Part shown: one piece after another, positions 3,217-23,124 of the stretch | Position numbering within the stretch: position 1 is the first letter of the stretch | Layout of the letters: every line of letters starts with the position of its first letter | Virus record (IMG/VR): IMGVR_UViG_3300045257_000103 | Location: 1-25,506 of that record | Length of the DNA: 25,506 nt | Reading direction: 5' to 3' (one strand) | DNA from: a virus | Program-made: the position numbers and the translations under genes | Notes under the pieces: generated by a model | The model's database searches: none | The model's input: the letters and a program-made list of their open reading frames with translations, nothing else | Told to the model about the DNA's origin: nothing

Positions 3217-3816
3217 ATGTATTCAGTATACAAAACCGTAAATCTGACCAATGGTAAGTATTACATTGGTGTTCATAAAACGGATGATCCAAATGATCGG
3301 TATTTGGGGTCTGGAAAATTACTTCAGACCGCCGTTAAGAAATATGGTATCGCCGGATTTGTTAAGCATGTTTTAGCCATATTCGATGATCCAGAGTCGG
3401 CCTTTGCTATGGAGGCAAATCTTGTGACCAAAGAAGTGGTAGCAAGTGGAAAATGCTACAATATGAAAATCGGCGGGTATGGAGGATTTGATCTAGTAAA
3501 TCAAACTAAGGATTGTAGTGATCCGATCTATTTACAGAAGCTTTCTGATTCGGCAAAAGCGCATCATAAACGCGGACACCCCGCAAGTTTCAAATATCGT
3601 CATGACAATAGATGCATGGGAAAATCGATCCCCGGATGGAAGCAAACTCAAGATGCAAAAGATCGAATGTCGGAAACTAAGCGTAAAAACAAAGTAGGAG
3701 TTGGTGAAAAGAACTCACAAGCTGGTACAATGTGGATAACCAATGAACTTTCCAATAGAAAGATCAATAAGTGCGACCCCTTACCAGAAGGGTGGCGCAA
3801 GGGTAGAAATATGTGA
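3217..3816 (+). CDS. GIY-YIG homing endonuclease
   Basis: A free-standing homing endonuclease that would nick or cut DNA to spread its own gene. The N-terminal GIY-YIG nuclease shows the first strand (YSVYKT, residues 2-7), KYYIG (14-18), the catalytic Arg in DRYLGSG (R28) and the metal-binding Glu in AMEANLV (E66). The C-terminal part has NUMOD-type DNA-binding segments (MGKSIPGW; KDRMSETKR) and ends with a MWITNE...LPEGWRKGR module typical of phage Seg-like enzymes. The start has a GAGAGGG ribosome-binding site and a late-promoter motif upstream. Its position inside a tRNA array, next to an orphan T-arm, fits invasion of a tRNA locus. The 199-residue length is normal for the family. Confidence 0.88.
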   Translation: MYSVYKTVNLTNGKYYIGVHKTDDPNDRYLGSGKLLQTAVKKYGIAGFVKHVLAIFDDPESAFAMEANLVTKEVVASGKCYNMKIGGYGGFDLVNQTKDCSDPIYLQKLSDSAKAHHKRGHPASFKYRHDNRCMGKSIPGWKQTQDAKDRMSETKRKNKVGVGEKNSQAGTMWITNELSNRKINKCDPLPEGWRKGRNM

Positions 3817-3823
3817 TATATTT

Positions 3824-3908
3824 GGAACGCTGACATAGTGGCCGTGTACCTGACTCTTAATCAGTGAGAGAAATCTCTAGCTCAGTTCGATTCTGAGGCG
3901 TTCCACCA
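3824..3908 (+). tRNA. tRNA-Lys (CTT) with class II variable arm
   Basis: Acceptor GGAACGC/GCGTTCC, A73, CCA. Anticodon stem CTGA/TCAG encloses CTCTTAA, anticodon CTT. The variable region is 16 nt with hairpin AGAGA/TCTCT, although Lys tRNAs are normally class I. The T-arm CTCAG-TTCGATT-CTGAG is perfect, so decay is not obvious. An ordinary Lys(CTT) lies at 3968. Confidence 0.82.
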
Positions 3909-3914
3909 AACAAT

Positions 3915-3963
3915 GTCGGGTAAGGGAAACTCCGGAGCGAGTAACTCCGCCCTCCCGGCTCCA
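3915..3963 (+). ncRNA. 49-nt tRNA-minihelix-like element ending in CCA
   Basis: GTCGGG pairs with CCCGGC, followed by T and CCA, like an acceptor end with discriminator T73. Further in, GGG/CCC and CGGAG-CGAGTAA-CTCCG continue the helix to a 7-nt loop lacking T33. It carries the same ACAAT leader immediately 5' that many tRNAs here have. It could be a processed minihelix or a tRNA deleted of two arms. Confidence 0.45.
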
Positions 3964-3967
3964 CTTC

Positions 3968-4043
3968 GGGTTTGTAGCTTAACTGGTAGAGCCTCTGACT
4001 CTTAATCAGATTGATGTCGGTTCGAAGCCGACCAAACCCACCA
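3968..4043 (+). tRNA. tRNA-Lys (CTT), canonical
   Basis: Acceptor GGGTTTG/CAAACCC, A73, CCA. Perfect anticodon stem TCTGA/TCAGA encloses CTCTTAA, anticodon CTT. Short class I variable loop, as normal for Lys. Confidence 0.94.
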
Positions 4044-4059
4044 AATTTCGGAGAGACGA

Positions 4060-4269
4060 ATGAGCAACGATAACGAATCGAAGGCACTTGACATATTACG
4101 TTTTACCCCTGAAGAAATTGCCGGGGTTGAACGAACATATAACGTTAAGTGGGACGAGATGTCAGAGTTGAGCAAAGTTTTCAAGGGAGTGATTTATCGA
4201 TCCTGCTTTTCTCCGGAAGCAATCGCGAACTACGTCATGTACGGGGATGAGGTTCCAAAGAAAGAATAA
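4060..4269 (+). CDS. hypothetical protein, 69 aa
   Basis: A small acidic, soluble protein with no recognised domain. The start ATG follows a GGAGAGACGA ribosome-binding site, 16 bases after the tRNA CCA. The sequence looks mostly helical (TPEEIAGVERTYNVKWDEMSE). It lies between two tRNA-Lys genes. Confidence 0.7.
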   Translation: MSNDNESKALDILRFTPEEIAGVERTYNVKWDEMSELSKVFKGVIYRSCFSPEAIANYVMYGDEVPKKE

Positions 4270-4339
4270 TCCTACCCGGCTCCACAACACAGTGAAGAGT
4301 GCTGTCTGAGATTTCCGGGGTGGAATAATGTGATACAAT

Positions 4340-4427
4340 GGGTCGTTGGCAGAATGGTTATGCATCGGACTTTTAATCCGGGAAGCGGAAATCTTCAATC
4401 TCGGTTCGATCCCGAGGCGACCCACCA
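4340..4427 (+). tRNA. tRNA-Lys (TTT) with class II variable arm
   Basis: Acceptor GGGTCGT/GCGACCC, A73, CCA. Anticodon stem TCGGA/TCCGG encloses CTTTTAA, anticodon TTT. The variable region forms GAAG-CGGAAAT-CTTC, a long class II arm. T-arm CTCGG-TTCGATC-CCGAG is perfect. A class I Lys(TTT) with nearly the same acceptor lies at 4905. The ACAAT leader abuts its 5' end. Confidence 0.85.
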
Positions 4428-4441
4428 ATTCAGGAACAGAT

Positions 4442-4900
4442 ATGCCTTTCATCGAAAACGTTCCACTCATGGACATTGTGAAAGGCCATCATCGTGATGC
4501 CGGAGAAAACAGTGTGCTTATCCAAATCGTGGATAACGATATGGACTTTCCGAAACCGGCAGCATCGTTCAAAGAGACCCACAAATTCAAGTTCTTGGAT
4601 GTTGAGGGTGGACAAATCGTTCTAGAACCAGAGTTCCGCATCAGCGACTTCCAAGCCGGTTGTCTAGTGGAAATTCTGAAATCTGCTTTGGCCAAGGACA
4701 TGAACGTCATTGTACATTGTCATGCAGGCGTGTGCCGGTCTGGCGCAGTCTGTGAAGTCGGTGTCATGATGGGATTCAATGACTGCAAGCGGTATCGCCA
4801 GCCGAACCTTCTGGTGAAACACAAGATGATACAGGTATTAGGCTGGACATATGACCCAGATGAAGGACATAATCTGGTAGACGGTACAGGATTTGATTAA
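4442..4900 (+). CDS. tyrosine/dual-specificity-type phosphatase
   Basis: A cysteine-based phosphatase that would hydrolyse phosphotyrosine or another phosphoester through a cysteinyl-phosphate intermediate. The P-loop signature HCx5R is visible as VHCHAGVCRS, with catalytic Cys at residue 93 and Arg at 99, after a hydrophobic strand (NVIVH). A plausible general acid is Asp in the DNDMDFPKP loop or DVEGG region, but I cannot assign it. The 152-residue length fits a minimal phosphatase domain. The start follows AGGAACAGAT 13 bases after the tRNA-Lys CCA. The substrate is unknown; targets in the host or RNA 5' phosphates are possibilities only. Confidence 0.82.
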   Translation: MPFIENVPLMDIVKGHHRDAGENSVLIQIVDNDMDFPKPAASFKETHKFKFLDVEGGQIVLEPEFRISDFQAGCLVEILKSALAKDMNVIVHCHAGVCRSGAVCEVGVMMGFNDCKRYRQPNLLVKHKMIQVLGWTYDPDEGHNLVDGTGFD

Positions 4901-4904
4901 TCAC

Positions 4905-4979
4905 GGGTCGCTAGCTCAATGGTAGAGCATCGGACTTTTAATCCGGTGGTTGTGGGTTCGAGTCCCACGCGACCCACCA
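4905..4979 (+). tRNA. tRNA-Lys (TTT), canonical
   Basis: Acceptor GGGTCGC/GCGACCC, A73, CCA. Anticodon stem TCGGA/TCCGG encloses CTTTTAA, anticodon TTT. Class I with normal D-arm (GCTCAATGGTAGAGC). Its acceptor and anticodon arms are almost identical to those of the class II gene at 4340. Confidence 0.94.
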
Positions 4980-6092: not shown

Positions 6093-6167
6093 GGTAGGTG
6101 TGGTGGAATTGGTAGACACGCCTGACTGTGAATCAGGTTTTTGCGAGTTCGAGTCTCGTCATCTACC
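6093..6167 (+). tRNA. tRNA-His (GTG), no encoded CCA, extended stem
   Basis: Acceptor GTAGGTG/CATCTAC with G-1 opposite C73, the His identity pair. Perfect anticodon stem CCTGA/TCAGG encloses CTGTGAA, anticodon GTG. After C73 the DNA reads CCCG, not CCA. The helix extends well past the acceptor: 6085-6100 pairs with 6160-6175 (16 bp including one G-U). The D-arm resembles Leu tRNAs (GGTGGAATTGGTAGAC). Confidence 0.85.
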
Positions 6168-6200
6168 CCCGAACAGCTTAGATAACATAGAGAACAAGGT

Positions 6201-6546: not shown

Positions 6547-6623
6547 GCCCTCGTGATGAAATTGGTAGCCATACTACATTCAGATTGTAGGTTCTGGGAG
6601 TTCGACTCTCCCCGAGGGCACCA
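6547..6623 (+). tRNA. tRNA-Leu (CAG) with class I variable loop
   Basis: Acceptor GCCCTCG/CGAGGGC, A73, CCA. Perfect anticodon stem CTACA/TGTAG encloses TTCAGAT, anticodon CAG. The variable loop is only five bases (GTTCT), whereas bacterial Leu tRNAs are class II with a long arm. T-arm GGGAG-TTCGACT-CTCCC is perfect. Confidence 0.85.
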
Positions 6624-7459: not shown

Positions 7460-7538
7460 GCCCCTGTACGCAAATTGGCAAAGCGGCTCGCCTCAAAAGT
7501 GAGTGATAGTGTGAGTTCGAGTCTCACGAGGGGCACCA
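7460..7538 (+). tRNA. tRNA-Leu (CAA) with class I variable loop
   Basis: Acceptor GCCCCTG/GAGGGGC (inner pair mismatched), A73, CCA. Anticodon stem CTCGC/GTGAG encloses CTCAAAA, anticodon CAA. The variable loop is seven bases, not the long arm expected of Leu. The ACAAT leader abuts the 5' end. Confidence 0.84.
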
Positions 7539-8009: not shown

Positions 8010-8084
8010 CGGACTATAGCTCAGTGGCAGAGCAATTGGCTGATAACCGATAGGTCGATGGTTCAAATCCATCTAGTCCGACCA
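8010..8084 (+). tRNA. tRNA-Ile (GAT)
   Basis: Perfect acceptor CGGACTA/TAGTCCG, A73, CCA. Anticodon stem ATTGG/CCGAT encloses CTGATAA, anticodon GAT. Class I. A class II Ile(GAT) lies at 15904. Confidence 0.92.
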
Positions 8085-12222: not shown

Positions 12223-12633
12223 ATGACCAACATACAAAAGCCGAACGTGCAAAAACTCACCCCGGAACAGATTGACAATGTCAATAAGGGGAAGTTTTCA
12301 CGTGGCAAAATTCCAGCAAACAACAAACTCTGGTACCCGTATAAGGGGCCATGGGAACAAATCGTCACGCCTTTGATTGAGCGTTGCAATACTCTCGGCC
12401 TGACCATTTGGGAAATCAAAGAGAAGTGGGGTAGTCTGCGTTTCACGACTGGAAGCGTGGATGAATCATTCACAACCCCCGACTTTGAGGCCATCCATGT
12501 CCTACAGAACGATATCGAGAATGCCTGCTCTGCATCCTATACCCTGTGCGAAATCTGCTGTCAGCCGGGGAAAGGCCGTAACAATGGACATCACGTCTTT
12601 GTGGCGTGCGACGAACATGCGATAAAACGATGA
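12223..12633 (+). CDS. hypothetical protein with C-terminal zinc site, 136 aa
   Basis: The middle contains KLWYPYKGPWEQIVTPLIER and IWEIKEKWGSLRFTTGSVD. The C-terminus has CEICCQPGKGRNN (near residue 107) and FVACDEHA, together CxxC...CxxH, a probable zinc-binding knuckle. I recognise this architecture from uncharacterised phage proteins. ATG 12223 is preceded by TAAGG. The stop overlaps the RNA ligase start (ATGA), so translation is coupled. Confidence 0.75.
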   Translation: MTNIQKPNVQKLTPEQIDNVNKGKFSRGKIPANNKLWYPYKGPWEQIVTPLIERCNTLGLTIWEIKEKWGSLRFTTGSVDESFTTPDFEAIHVLQNDIENACSASYTLCEICCQPGKGRNNGHHVFVACDEHAIKR

Positions 12634-13253
12634 AAGCCTATCCATCCATCACCACCAAGATTGACTTTACGAAACCTGCCGTCGTGTTTGACAAACTCGA
12701 CGGTTCGAATATCCGTGCGGAATGGAGTCCCAAACAGGGATTCTATAAATTCGGGTCAAGAACACAACTTCTGACTCCAGACCAGACTCAGTTGTACCCC
12801 GCAATCGATAAGATTCTTGCTGATTTCGGCGAGGAACTGTCAGTCCGATTCCGTCAAAAGAAAATGGAGCGTGCGGTTGCTTTCTTCGAATACGGTGGCC
12901 CAAACTCTTTTGCTGGGTCGCATCCTGACCCCGTGGAAGACCTTACAGCCACCATCATCGACGTGTCTGTGTACAAGAAAGGCTTTATGGCTCCTGACGC
13001 GTTCATTCAGTTTACAGATGGTTTGAGGACGCCACGAGTCTTGTTCAGGGGGCGAATGGATGAGGATTTCTTTCAATCCGTGCGCCATTCGACCCTTCCG
13101 GGCATGACATTCGAGGGTGTGGTGGGAAAGAGCTTAGAAACTGTTCATAGTGAAGGTGGCCCCATCATGTTCAAAATCAAGTCGAATGCTTGGCTTGACA
13201 AGTTGAAGACGTTCTGTAATAATGATGAACAGATGTTTAACCGATTGAAGTGA
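12630..13253 (+). CDS. RNA ligase (nucleotidyltransferase domain)
   Basis: ATP-dependent ligase-family enzyme that seals RNA (or nicked nucleic acid) through a lysine-adenylate. Motif I is DKLDGSN with catalytic Lys22; motif III is FFEYGG (Glu87); motif IV is FEGVVG (162-167); motif V is MFKIKS with Lys182 and Lys184. These fit the Rnl2-like core. At 207 residues it is little more than the adenylyltransferase domain. The start overlaps the upstream stop by 4 bases. In T4, RNA ligase repairs host tRNA-Lys cut by the PrrC defence. Here four tRNA-Lys genes are encoded nearby, so tRNA repair is the likely role (inference). Confidence 0.82.
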   Translation: MKAYPSITTKIDFTKPAVVFDKLDGSNIRAEWSPKQGFYKFGSRTQLLTPDQTQLYPAIDKILADFGEELSVRFRQKKMERAVAFFEYGGPNSFAGSHPDPVEDLTATIIDVSVYKKGFMAPDAFIQFTDGLRTPRVLFRGRMDEDFFQSVRHSTLPGMTFEGVVGKSLETVHSEGGPIMFKIKSNAWLDKLKTFCNNDEQMFNRLK

Positions 13254-13728: not shown

Positions 13729-13816
13729 TGTGGGTATGAGTGGCGCACTTCTGGTGCGTCCGGTACTTCGGTTTTCATGAGACCGATGCGTGGTTCGATT
13801 CCACAGCCCACAACCA
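13729..13816 (+). tRNA. tRNA-Met/Ile2-type (CAT) with D-loop hairpin
   Basis: Acceptor TGTGGGT/GCCCACA, A73, CCA. Anticodon stem CGGTT/GACCG encloses TTCATGA, anticodon CAT. It could be elongator Met or lysidine-modified Ile; initiator features are absent. D-stem GAGT/ACTT encloses 23 nt containing GCGCA-CTTCTGG-TGCGT, itself a 5-bp/7-nt arm reading TCT. T-arm GTGG-TTCGATT-CCAC is normal. Confidence 0.75.
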
Positions 13817-14861: not shown

Positions 14862-14935
14862 GCTGATGTAGTTTAATGTAGAACCCCTTCTTGGTATGAA
14901 GGATAGCGCAGACTCAACCCCTGTCATCAGCACCA
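14862..14935 (+). tRNA. tRNA-Thr (GGT)
   Basis: Perfect acceptor GCTGATG/CATCAGC, A73, CCA. Anticodon stem CCTTC/GAAGG encloses TTGGTAT, anticodon GGT. The T-loop (ACTCAACC) lacks the TTC signature. Confidence 0.85.
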
Positions 14936-15903: not shown

Positions 15904-15989
15904 GGTAGGTGACCAATATGGCAAATGGAACGGCCCGATAAGCCGGGAGAGCAATCTCATCGCTGGTTCGACTCCAGCACCTACCACCA
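15904..15989 (+). tRNA. tRNA-Ile-like (GAT) with class II variable arm
   Basis: Perfect acceptor GGTAGGT/ACCTACC, A73, CCA. Anticodon stem CGGC/GCCG encloses CCGATAA, anticodon GAT, with C instead of T at 33. The variable region forms GAGA-GCAA-TCTC, a class II arm not expected of Ile. T-arm GCTGG-TTCGACT-CCAGC is perfect. Confidence 0.7.
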
Positions 15990-16003: not shown

Positions 16004-16672
16004 ATGAAGCGTATCATCGAAATCAAGGGTGCCGAAGGCGGAGCAGACGCCAGCCTATTCGTGCGAGACCTATCCAAGGCGTACCAGAAGTTGTTCATTC
16101 GCTTCGGTTGAAAGCATCACGTCCTACGCGACGTGTATGGCGAAGTGACTCTGGAAGTAGCAGGCGACGATCTAACAGGTCTGGACGCCGAAGCAGGGGG
16201 CCATCGCATCCAACGGATTCCACCGACTGAAAGAAAGGGTCGAATCCACACAAGCACCGTAACAGTAGCCGTCATGTCTCCCAATAACGTGAAGACCGTT
16301 GTCCGGGATTCAGATTTGAAGGTCGAATGGTATTCAGGTTCTGGAGCCGGTGGTCAGCATCGGAATAAAGTCCAATGTTGCTGTAGGTTGACCCACATCC
16401 CTACCGGAACAATGGCCACAGCACAGACCAGAAGTCGCCAGAACTCCTACAAACTCGCCAGAGAGACGATAGTCGAACGAGTGGAGTCTGCCGCAGCTTC
16501 GAAGCACAAACACGAGACATCCATGGATAGGAAGCAACAGATGGGGTCTGGGATGCGTGGCGACAAACGTAGAACCTATCGATTCCAAGATGATATGTTG
16601 AAAGACCATGAAACAGGACGCTCTGCTTCTTGTGAACAGGTTCTTGCTGGTTTCTTCGAGCTATTGTGGTAA
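16004..16672 (+). CDS. RF1-type peptide chain release factor with in-frame UGA
   Basis: A class I release factor without the N-terminal domain 1, about 222 residues. It starts MKRIIEIKGAEGGADASLF, the beginning of RF domain 2. It contains GGHRIQRIPPTERKGRIHTS, in which PPT corresponds to the RF1 PxT stop-codon reader (UAA/UAG), and SGAGGQHRNK with the catalytic GGQ. After 35 codons the frame has a TGA (16109-16111), then continues in the same frame to TAA at 16672. Aligned by eye with RF1, the UGA falls where RF1 has Trp in ARRWRVE. Readthrough as Trp, a pseudogene or a sequencing error are the options. The ATG follows AAGGAAAGTG. A start at ATG 16133 has no ribosome-binding site. Confidence 0.78.
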
Positions 16673-21837: not shown

Positions 21838-23124
21838 ATGACCAAGAAATTCACGATGCTCCTGATGTCCAATGCGACAGAGAACAACAACAAGTTCTAT
21901 GAAGTCAAGTTGGAAGATGACGACTCGGTAATCGCACGCTATGGCCGCGTCGGCGCTCAGGGTGTAGTGGAAAACAAGGGCTATGGCGAATCTACGTTTG
22001 ATAGTGTGATTGCCAAGAAAAAGAAGAAAGGGTATCGTGAAGTCGATATTCTGACGACCAATAATGTCGCAACTACCTCGACTGCATCGTCGCCTGTCCA
22101 CACAAGTTTGGTGGAAGTTGCCAAGCGTGATATCGCAAAACACAATCCGGAACTGAACCAACTTCTGGAACGACTGGCGAAAATCAACAAATTTCAGCTT
22201 CTGGCTGCATCCGGTGGGCAGATTGACATCGTTGACGGCGTCGTCCGCACACCGCTCGGGCTGGTCACGCTCAATAGCGTGAAAACTGCACAGGACAAGT
22301 TGGTCAGTCTTGAGCATTTCATCAAGACAAGCCACAGTGATGACAAGGGATATATTTCCACTCTGGAAGATTACCTGACCCTCGTTCCGCAAAAAATTCC
22401 GGCCAAGCGTGGCTGGCACACGGCGTTCTTTACGGAGTTCACTTCGTTTCAGAAGCAGAACGAACTGTTGGAACAGTTGGAAAACTCCATCATCAGCAAT
22501 AGCGCCGCTCCGCCAACTCCGGTCACCGATAAAAAGGATGCCGAAGTGAAGCGCGTCTTTGGCTATTCCTTGGACAAGGTCAGCGACAGGGACGTGTTCA
22601 AGCGGGTGGAGAAGTATTACACGTCCAACATCAATCGTGGTCACGCCTGCTCGCATCTGAAGCTGAAGAACCTCTTCGTCATCACCAATGATGATAAGAA
22701 GGCCCGCTATCATCGGATGCTCGGCAAGGTCGGCAACGAGAAGCAACTCTGGCATGGCACCCGCGCCCATAACGTGCTGTCCATCCTGAAGGCTGGCCTG
22801 ATTATCCCAACGTCTTCCGGTGGTTACACCATTACTGGTAGAATGTTCGGTGATGGTGTATACTTTAGCGACCAGTCGAGCAAGAGTCTCAACTACGCCC
22901 ATGGCTATTGGGGCGGTGGCCCACGTGAGAACAACTGCTTCATGTTCTTGGCGAATGTCGCGATGGGCAAGGAATACGTCCCACCGCGTCCCATGCACCG
23001 TCCACCGGCAGGGTATGACTCCATGTTCGCCATTGGTGGTAAGAGTGGCGTGGCCAACAACGAAATGATTGTGTATGACCTTGACCAGACCCATTTGGCC
23101 TATCTGTGCGAGTTCGACGCTTAA
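21838..23124 (+). CDS. WGR-PARP ADP-ribosyltransferase
   Basis: A poly(ADP-ribose) polymerase-type enzyme, using NAD+ to attach ADP-ribose to target molecules. An N-terminal WGR domain (about residues 1-72, with VIARYGRVGAQG at its core) would bind DNA ends. A helical regulatory region follows (GYISTLEDYLTLVPQKIPAK is typical). The C-terminal catalytic domain has LWHGTR (His306), GDGVYFSD (Tyr342) and NNEMIVYD (Glu409), giving the full H-Y-E triad of PARP1. At 428 residues it is complete. GC-rich third positions are stronger than in neighbouring small genes. It lies behind its own early-type promoter. Targets could be host RNA polymerase, DNA or other proteins. Confidence 0.88.
   Translation: MTKKFTMLLMSNATENNNKFYEVKLEDDDSVIARYGRVGAQGVVENKGYGESTFDSVIAKKKKKGYREVDILTTNNVATTSTASSPVHTSLVEVAKRDIAKHNPELNQLLERLAKINKFQLLAASGGQIDIVDGVVRTPLGLVTLNSVKTAQDKLVSLEHFIKTSHSDDKGYISTLEDYLTLVPQKIPAKRGWHTAFFTEFTSFQKQNELLEQLENSIISNSAAPPTPVTDKKDAEVKRVFGYSLDKVSDRDVFKRVEKYYTSNINRGHACSHLKLKNLFVITNDDKKARYHRMLGKVGNEKQLWHGTRAHNVLSILKAGLIIPTSSGGYTITGRMFGDGVYFSDQSSKSLNYAHGYWGGGPRENNCFMFLANVAMGKEYVPPRPMHRPPAGYDSMFAIGGKSGVANNEMIVYDLDQTHLAYLCEFDA

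Follow-up and report, generated by a model that had tools for sequence, protein, structure and literature searches.

Lysine tRNA genes with class II variable arms in a tRNA-rich phage, and class-switched counterparts of other specificities among phages

Four lysine tRNA genes in two structural classes

The window analyzed here is the whole of a 25,506-nucleotide stretch (25.5 kb) of an IMG/VR virus record, representing a large, tRNA-rich, myovirus-like phage. It encodes a T4-type major head protein and 28 tRNA genes identified by ARAGORN, to which Infernal adds further ones. Its PARP-like protein is 51–58% identical to homologues of the Xanthomonas jumbo phage XacN1 and the Stenotrophomonas phages RAS14/CM1. 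Probing IMG/VR with the major head protein of the window retrieved no relatives, and comparison of the whole tRNA region with known phages by DNA similarity matched a class I Lys gene alone. According to textbooks, long variable (V) arms, the mark of class II, are found among bacteria only in tRNAs for Leu, Ser and Tyr. The window nonetheless carries four Lys genes in which each anticodon occurs once with a class I and once with a class II body. These and other relevant features are:

3217..3816, + strand: homing endonuclease ORF, GIY-YIG-like (PHROG 314, E=1e-37; PHROG 5123, GIY-YIG, E=5e-5)
3824..3908, + strand: class II tRNA-Lys(CTT) (ARAGORN; Infernal, 40.9 bits; unconstrained fold)
3968..4043, + strand: class I tRNA-Lys(CTT), V region of 5 nt (ARAGORN; Infernal, 67.5 bits)
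4340..4427, + strand: class II tRNA-Lys(TTT) (ARAGORN; Infernal, 50.3 bits)
4905..4979, + strand: class I tRNA-Lys(TTT), V region of 5 nt (ARAGORN; Infernal, 76.5 bits)
12606..13253, + strand: RNA ligase-like ORF (PHROG 548, E=1e-14; Pfam RNA_ligase, E=6e-5, below the gathering score)
21838-23124: WGR-PARP protein (poly-ADP-ribose polymerase-like), common to XacN1, RAS14 and Klebsiella phages

ARAGORN placed the four Lys genes exactly where an earlier note, made by eye from this DNA, had located them, and the covariance model Rfam RF00005 kept the same anticodon register in all four, each scoring above the gathering score of 29 bits. The V regions of the genes at 3824 and 4340 measure 15 and 18 nt, outside the 4–5 nt usual for tRNA-Lys. 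Both present their anticodons (CUU and UUU) in 7-nt loops, CTCTTAA and CTTTTAA, with U33 and a purine at position 37, and ACCA (A73 and the CCA end) is encoded in all four Lys genes. In 3824 the acceptor stem is GGAACGC/GCGTTCC and the V arm (3866-3880) reads GAGA-GAAA-TCTC-TAG; the V region of 4340 (4382-4399) reads GAAG-CGGAAAT-CTTC-AAT. The stems of these copies had been described as perfect, which holds for the T stems; the acceptor of 4340 contains one U7-G66 wobble, and the anticodon stems contain a C27.U43 mismatch (3824) and a U27-G43 wobble (4340). The accompanying view that the copies are not obviously decayed is borne out by their intact form and by the Lys features of anticodon, A73 and CCA.

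Folded without constraint, 3824 is predicted to form the full class II cloverleaf, including a GAAA-capped 4-bp V arm, as both its minimum-energy and its centroid structure. The prediction for 4340 recovers its acceptor, anticodon and T stems but mispairs the D and V regions. Hairpin scores of the two V arms, each compared singly with shuffled V sequences, gave p=0.03 (3824) and p=0.09 (4340). Among phages, tRNAs for Tyr and Lys gave the only DNA matches to the 4340 gene, all of them partial.

The two Lys(TTT) genes, 4340 and 4905, are identical throughout the anticodon arm (17/17) and at 13/14 positions of the acceptor stem, differ at 6/17 positions of the T arm, and are unlike in their D and V regions. 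Acceptor and anticodon arms as alike as these were found elsewhere in 0/42 same-locus and 0/16,390 different-locus pairs. The pair reflects either an exchange of cores involving two Lys genes or a strong constraint that preserves the parts specifying Lys. No such likeness links the CTT pair, 3824 and 3968, whose acceptors mismatch at 10/14 positions. The homing endonuclease ORF, for which a Pfam search gave no match, stops 7 nt upstream of the class II Lys(CTT) gene, and a small ORF resembling dual-specificity phosphatases, with the motif HCHAGVCRSG, occupies 4442-4900 between the two Lys(TTT) genes.

An isoleucine pair and the reverse switch in leucine tRNAs

A third pair with one anticodon in both classes, absent from the earlier note, is formed by Ile(GAT) genes, and two Leu genes show the opposite departure:

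15904..15989, + strand: class II tRNA-Ile(GAT) (Infernal, 39.3 bits; sequence and fold; missed by ARAGORN)
8010..8084, + strand: class I tRNA-Ile(GAT), partner of the preceding gene (ARAGORN; Infernal, 71.5 bits)
6547..6623, + strand: class I tRNA-Leu(CAG), A15-U48 and A73 kept, 15:48 read from segments (ARAGORN)
7460..7538, + strand: short-arm tRNA-Leu(CAA), V region of 7 nt, A15-U48 and A73 kept (ARAGORN)

The class II Ile gene has the V arm GAGA-GCAA-TCTC-ATC, A73 and an encoded CCA. All three pairs, Lys(CTT), Lys(TTT) and Ile(GAT), read ANN codons. From the two class I Leu tRNAs it follows that shape and identity are uncoupled in both directions, and among the matches listed we found 66 class I Leu tRNAs in phages, 57 of which keep the Leu marks A15-U48/A73.

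Other unusual genes populate the window. A Ser-like class II tRNA (1579-1719; G73, CCA) has an insertion of ~54 nt within its anticodon loop, which holds a T-arm-like hairpin (CGAG-TTCAAAT-CTCG) and looks as though it were a fragment of a different tRNA or an intron of an unusual kind; over-long Infernal tRNA matches occur elsewhere in RAS14 (134 nt), FBKp34 (111 nt) and XacN1 (106 nt). The tRNA-His(GTG) at 6093-6170 combines a Leu-like D arm (GTGGTGGAATTGGTAGACACG) with a class I body and is possibly a further chimera. The segment 615-725 is a tRNA-like remnant whose acceptor-like ends, AGGTGTG...CACGCCTGCCA, flank ~85 nt with no clear cloverleaf, and two degenerate tRNAs were detected by Infernal only: one that is probably Thr-TGT, its T loop being abnormal (1114-1188), and one with a TGG-like anticodon and a mismatched T stem (14862-14935). 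A Gly(tcc) call by ARAGORN (13729-13816), considered as a further class II case, was set aside for want of U33 and of Infernal support; the sequence may instead represent a tRNA resembling Met(CAT), CGGTT-TTCATGA-GACCG, in which the D-arm hairpin is much lengthened. Part of a phage peptide release factor (16133-16672) comprises an RF-1 domain with GGQ and the end of a PCRF domain, its N-terminal part seemingly lying upstream in another frame, near the class II Ile gene. An FtsH-like phage protease (17045-19012) joins an AAA ATPase and an M41 peptidase, with a divergent middle region.

Distribution among phages and cellular genomes

A search pattern for class II Lys(TTT) genes, ACTTTTAATN{22,34}GGTTCRANYCC, matched at least 119 IMG/VR stretches, in which ARAGORN called at least 109 class II Lys genes; the combined viral sets yielded at least 104 usable class II Lys(TTT) genes, forming 84 clusters at 85% identity, most related tRNA genes having been called by ARAGORN alone. 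Related loci are partial contigs, and these and the following counts apply to the sequence present per locus. Pairing of the two classes, prominent in the window, proved not to be a rule, a class I Lys(TTT) gene being present in only 34 of ~100 class II Lys(TTT) loci (partial contigs, among the matches listed). Carriers of class II Lys genes were found on longer contigs (median 68 kb versus 40 kb), 22% of them reaching at least 200 kb, compared with 6% (among the matches listed).

In 397 Pseudomonadota genomes besides the centre genome the pattern was absent; a class I Lys pattern was present in 48/60 Pseudomonadota genomes. Among the first 119 matches listed from the genome collection, 23 were class II Lys calls, many on short MAG contigs, and some of the calls on contigs of this collection are probably viral. 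A Thalassospira genome (L410 / L475) contains adjacent class II Lys genes, CTT and TTT, both with U73, near a dense tRNA array; this pair possibly sits in a prophage or mobile element.

Lys, on which the earlier note had focused, is not a special case: in class-agnostic scans class II genes made up 5/127 Lys and a similar share of Asn, 7/100 (among the matches listed). Class II bodies were identified, too, on tRNAs for Asn, Ile, Met, Thr, Trp and Cys. The highest rate for any anticodon not used for selection was that of Ile(TAT), with 13/35 phage genes (IMG/VR loci L005-L350, among the matches listed), and Thr(TGT) had 10/110 against 0/34 for Thr(GGT), again among the matches listed. Among the matches listed, class II bodies were commoner in Lys, Asn, Trp and Met, and very rare in Ala (0/96 tgc), Arg (0/55 acg) and Val.

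Cultured phages provide further examples. The tRNA-Asn of phiKZ is class II, with a V region of 15 nt and G73; Xanthomonas phage X1 pairs a class I with a class II gene for both Asn and Lys; and the Lys(CTT) genes of CcrColossus and RcXuper are class II. In XacN1 the genes for Lys(CTT), Asn, Thr(TGT), Cys and Gly(TCC) are class II, and each is the sole gene for its anticodon in the tRNA region. Database records, where annotated, label the class II genes of cultured phages plain tRNA-Lys or tRNA-Asn. The XacN1 paper makes no mention of variable arms, and no description of class II bodies on phage tRNAs other than Leu, Ser and Tyr was found in the open-licence literature. Class-switched tRNAs are a widespread feature of phages and, as far as that literature shows, an undescribed one.

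Features bearing on amino acid identity

The discriminator base, N73, of class II tRNAs tracks the anticodon: among the matches listed it is G in Asn (23/24) and Trp (9/9), T in Cys (9/10) and Gly (3/3), C in His (6/6) and A in Ile (14/15). For class II Lys, A73 occurs in 88/108 and T in 18/108 of the matches listed, with no G. The frequency of U73, 18/108 compared with 3/234 in class I Lys (among the matches listed), counts against the explanation that we favor below.

A second regularity concerns the base of the V arm, whose geometry was assigned with a simple hairpin finder. Among the matches listed, three or four unpaired 3' nt are present in 85/108 class II Lys, and at most two in 129/138 Ser and 112/126 Leu; Tyr mostly has three. 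Four unpaired 3' nt distinguish 44/108 class II Lys from 3/138 Ser, 2/126 Leu and 6/65 Tyr (among the matches listed). The arms themselves are paired: hairpin scores of at least 9 were reached by 60% of the 108 class II Lys genes listed and 15% of shuffles, and in class II Lys genes with 15-nt V regions fixed-position V-stem pairing was 0.89 against a median of 0.40. The number of unpaired bases and the 15-48 pair are among the features that distinguish class II tRNAs according to a review (PMC9976931). Among the matches listed, A15-U48 together with A73 is nearly universal in class II Leu (126/128) and rarer in class II Lys (24/108) than in class I Lys (85/234).

Viewed in this light, neither 3824 nor 4340 fits tRNA-Ser, for which G73 and a V-arm base with roughly one unpaired 3' nt would be expected, each having A73 and three unpaired 3' nt (phage Ser tRNAs mostly have 0–2), or tRNA-Tyr, the anticodons being CUU and UUU rather than GUA and only the V-arm base geometry being Tyr-like. 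The Leu combination is lacking in 3824 (G15-G48); in 4340 A15-U48 and A73 are present, yet accompanied by three unpaired 3' nt. That copy may therefore undergo some leucylation, and its assignment is less safe than that of 3824.

Taken together, the N73 and V-arm regularities suggest that class II tRNAs are most likely charged with the amino acid of their anticodon. For Lys, A73 by itself leaves Leu or Tyr possible, and the rule comes from the other isotypes. The simplest reading of these sequence patterns would be that class is uncoupled from identity and that mischarging is selected against.

Comparisons of D arms, V arms and bodies revealed no single donor of the class II Lys core. The D arm is often nearest to Ser (50/108), and the bodies are closest to each other (66% of top-5 neighbors; both among the matches listed). 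A simple origin as Tyr chimeras was rejected, since D arms are nearest Ser, V arms are Tyr-like or of their own type, and bodies are nearest one another. A CAYC ending of the V arm was likewise discarded as the mark of one family: it occurs in 32/108 class II Lys genes (among the matches listed), in few others and in none of those of the window.

A possible role against tRNA-directed defenses, and alternatives

The explanation we favor, with a probability as a whole of roughly 0.45, is that the class II Lys genes specify working, Lys-accepting elongator tRNAs. They would retain the parts that specify Lys (anticodon arm, acceptor end and A73), with D arm, V region and T arm converted to a class II core. 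The V arm would exit this core at an angle not read by SerRS or LeuRS, so that mischarging would mostly be avoided, and the reshaped core would still be usable by LysRS, EF-Tu and the ribosome. The core surface on which tRNA-attacking enzymes of hosts or rivals dock would be altered, and the phage would command a back-up pool of Lys (and Ile) tRNAs for when their ordinary counterparts with matching anticodons are destroyed. From the observed structure, spread and N73 and V-arm regularities we infer Lys charging, use in translation and resistance to core-reading nucleases.

PrrC, as far as is known, reads only the anticodon arm. The identical 17-nt anticodon arms of the TTT pair make resistance of 4340 to nucleases reading that arm alone unlikely, and the evasion of PrrC-type enzymes envisaged in the earlier note is to that extent not supported. 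Its premise is supported: phage defenses have repeatedly been seen to attack Lys tRNA (PrrC and PARIS), and phage Lys tRNAs are proven antidotes to both (PMC11555353, PMC12409363). The PARIS nuclease AriB cuts Lys(UUU), Thr(UGU) and Asn(GUU), and contacts tRNA beyond the anticodon arm too (PMC12409363). The UAAUC/A site at which it cleaves E. coli tRNA-Lys is retained in both genes of the CTT pair. The tRNA-Tyr of phage T5 is reported to withstand retron-Eco7 by virtue of its distinctive variable loop (PMC13096335). Class II bodies were 2.8 times commoner in readers of ANN codons (27/415 versus 14/580, p=0.002, own scan anticodon excluded, among the matches listed), the phages having been chosen by Lys/Asn patterns, the tRNAs being neither independent samples nor phylogenetically independent, and p-values being only indicative. 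All three AriB targets named above belong to the ANN readers, which would count for a protective role. We know of no defense that targets Trp, Cys or Ile-UAU, though class II tRNAs occur there. RNA ligases of T4-type phages mend cleaved tRNA; a setting of tRNA damage would suit the RNA ligase-like ORF of the window as well as the genes for tRNA repair in XacN1.

The main rival is a neutral exchange of cores, in which recombination between closely packed tRNA genes of phages, serving ordinary codon supply, would produce a class II shape without purpose, tolerated by LysRS, AsnRS, MetRS, TrpRS and other synthetases that read mainly the anticodon and N73. We regard this as a serious possibility, with odds clearly below even. 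Switches run both ways, as the class I Leu tRNAs attest (57 of the 66 listed with A15-U48/A73); class II is commoner in Lys, Asn, Trp and Met, whose synthetases are mainly anticodon-reading, and near-absent in Ala and Arg; Lys codons are abundant (AAG 37.5 and AAA 29.3 per 1000); the TTT pair is alike in acceptor and anticodon arms and unlike in core, as a core swap predicts; and tRNA arrays with homing endonucleases, one of which adjoins 3824, give opportunity. However, the V arms are not merely borrowed, the 4-nt linker of 44/108 class II Lys genes being rare in Ser, Leu and Tyr, and the bodies are most alike among themselves (both among the matches listed). CysRS, and IleRS in the case of Ile(UAU), read the tRNA core, yet Cys and Ile(UAU) are among the most-switched isotypes. 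Neutral change would also be expected in cellular genomes, where the count was 0/397.

The earlier note had proposed that the remodeled copies are decoys or cleavage-resistant substitutes, of which the second remains plausible and the first is weak. Decoys, occupying an anticodon nuclease without serving translation, would suit the presence in the window of an ordinary copy for each of the class II Lys and Ile genes, and competition by overexpressed phage tRNA has been raised as a possibility for AriB (PMC12409363). We nevertheless consider them improbable: class II genes are often the sole copy for their anticodon (XacN1; 31 partial-contig loci with class II Lys(TTT) only, among the matches listed), and the N73 and V-arm constraints, which indicate charging and avoidance of mischarging, are needless in a pure decoy. 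Since the XacN1 class II genes are sole for their anticodons, substitutes fit better.

About as improbable, in our judgment, is recoding through charging by SerRS or LeuRS, which would place Ser or Leu at Lys codons. The class II shape, the Ser-like D arms (50/108 listed) and the Leu-type A15-U48 and A73 of 4340 would agree with it, but G73 is found in 0/108 class II Lys genes listed, the three or four unpaired 3' nt are unlike Ser and Leu, and N73 matches the anticodon in each isotype that is sufficiently represented. That these are decaying genes or software artefacts is hardly credible: covariance scores do fall below those of the class I copies, 4340 does not form a full cloverleaf unaided and the Gly(tcc) call by ARAGORN is doubtful, but CCA is encoded, stems are intact, the 84 clusters have paired V stems, and cultured phages (phiKZ, X1, CcrColossus, RcXuper) carry such genes.

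That class II Lys tRNAs are cleavage-resistant substitutes, by means other than the anticodon loop, is thus plausible but unproven. More broadly, and tentatively, at odds somewhat under even, phages may possess a general class-switched repertoire. In it at least the tRNAs for Lys, Asn, Ile, Met, Thr, Trp, Cys and His would take class II cores and those for Leu class I cores, with identity conveyed by anticodon and N73, a V-arm geometry of its own, and selection arising because defenses read the tRNA core. If so, tRNA class would be no fixed part of identity, automatic annotation would conceal the switch, and an escape route from tRNA-cutting immunity, new and open to testing, would exist. The TTT pair, with its identical anticodon arms, offers a natural experiment isolating the effect of the core, and the tRNA-Asn of phiKZ a class-switched case in a model phage.

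Comparison with known systems

The tRNA-Lys of T5, active against PARIS, and that of SP15, active against PrrC170, resemble the window genes as phage Lys tRNAs with A73 from tRNA-rich regions. The T5 tRNA-Lys differs in being class I (V region of 5 nt) and in escaping through anticodon-arm bases 39 and 41, whereas the TTT pair of the window differs in the core. Anticodon-loop variants proposed to evade tRNA nucleases (PMC10264068) share the principle of an altered phage tRNA, with changes in the loop instead of the D, V and T regions; variable arms are not mentioned in that paper. The T5 tRNA-Tyr is comparable in that its resistance to cleavage by retron-Eco7 is ascribed to the variable region (PMC13096335), but as Tyr is naturally class II no change of class is involved.

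The bacterial class II tRNAs, Leu, Ser and Tyr, have in common with the phage genes a long V-arm hairpin and class II-type D arms; the phage genes differ in their Lys or Ile anticodons, the N73 that matches these, and a V-arm base mostly with three or four unpaired 3' nt. Nematode nev-tRNAs, which are class II with Gly or Ile anticodons and reportedly accept Leu in vitro, likewise place a class II body on an anticodon other than that of Leu, Ser or Tyr. They are of animal origin and reportedly Leu-charged, whereas the genes described here belong to bacterial viruses and carry an N73 that indicates the amino acid of the anticodon; the N73 and V-arm statistics argue against a comparable miscoding by phage class II tRNAs.
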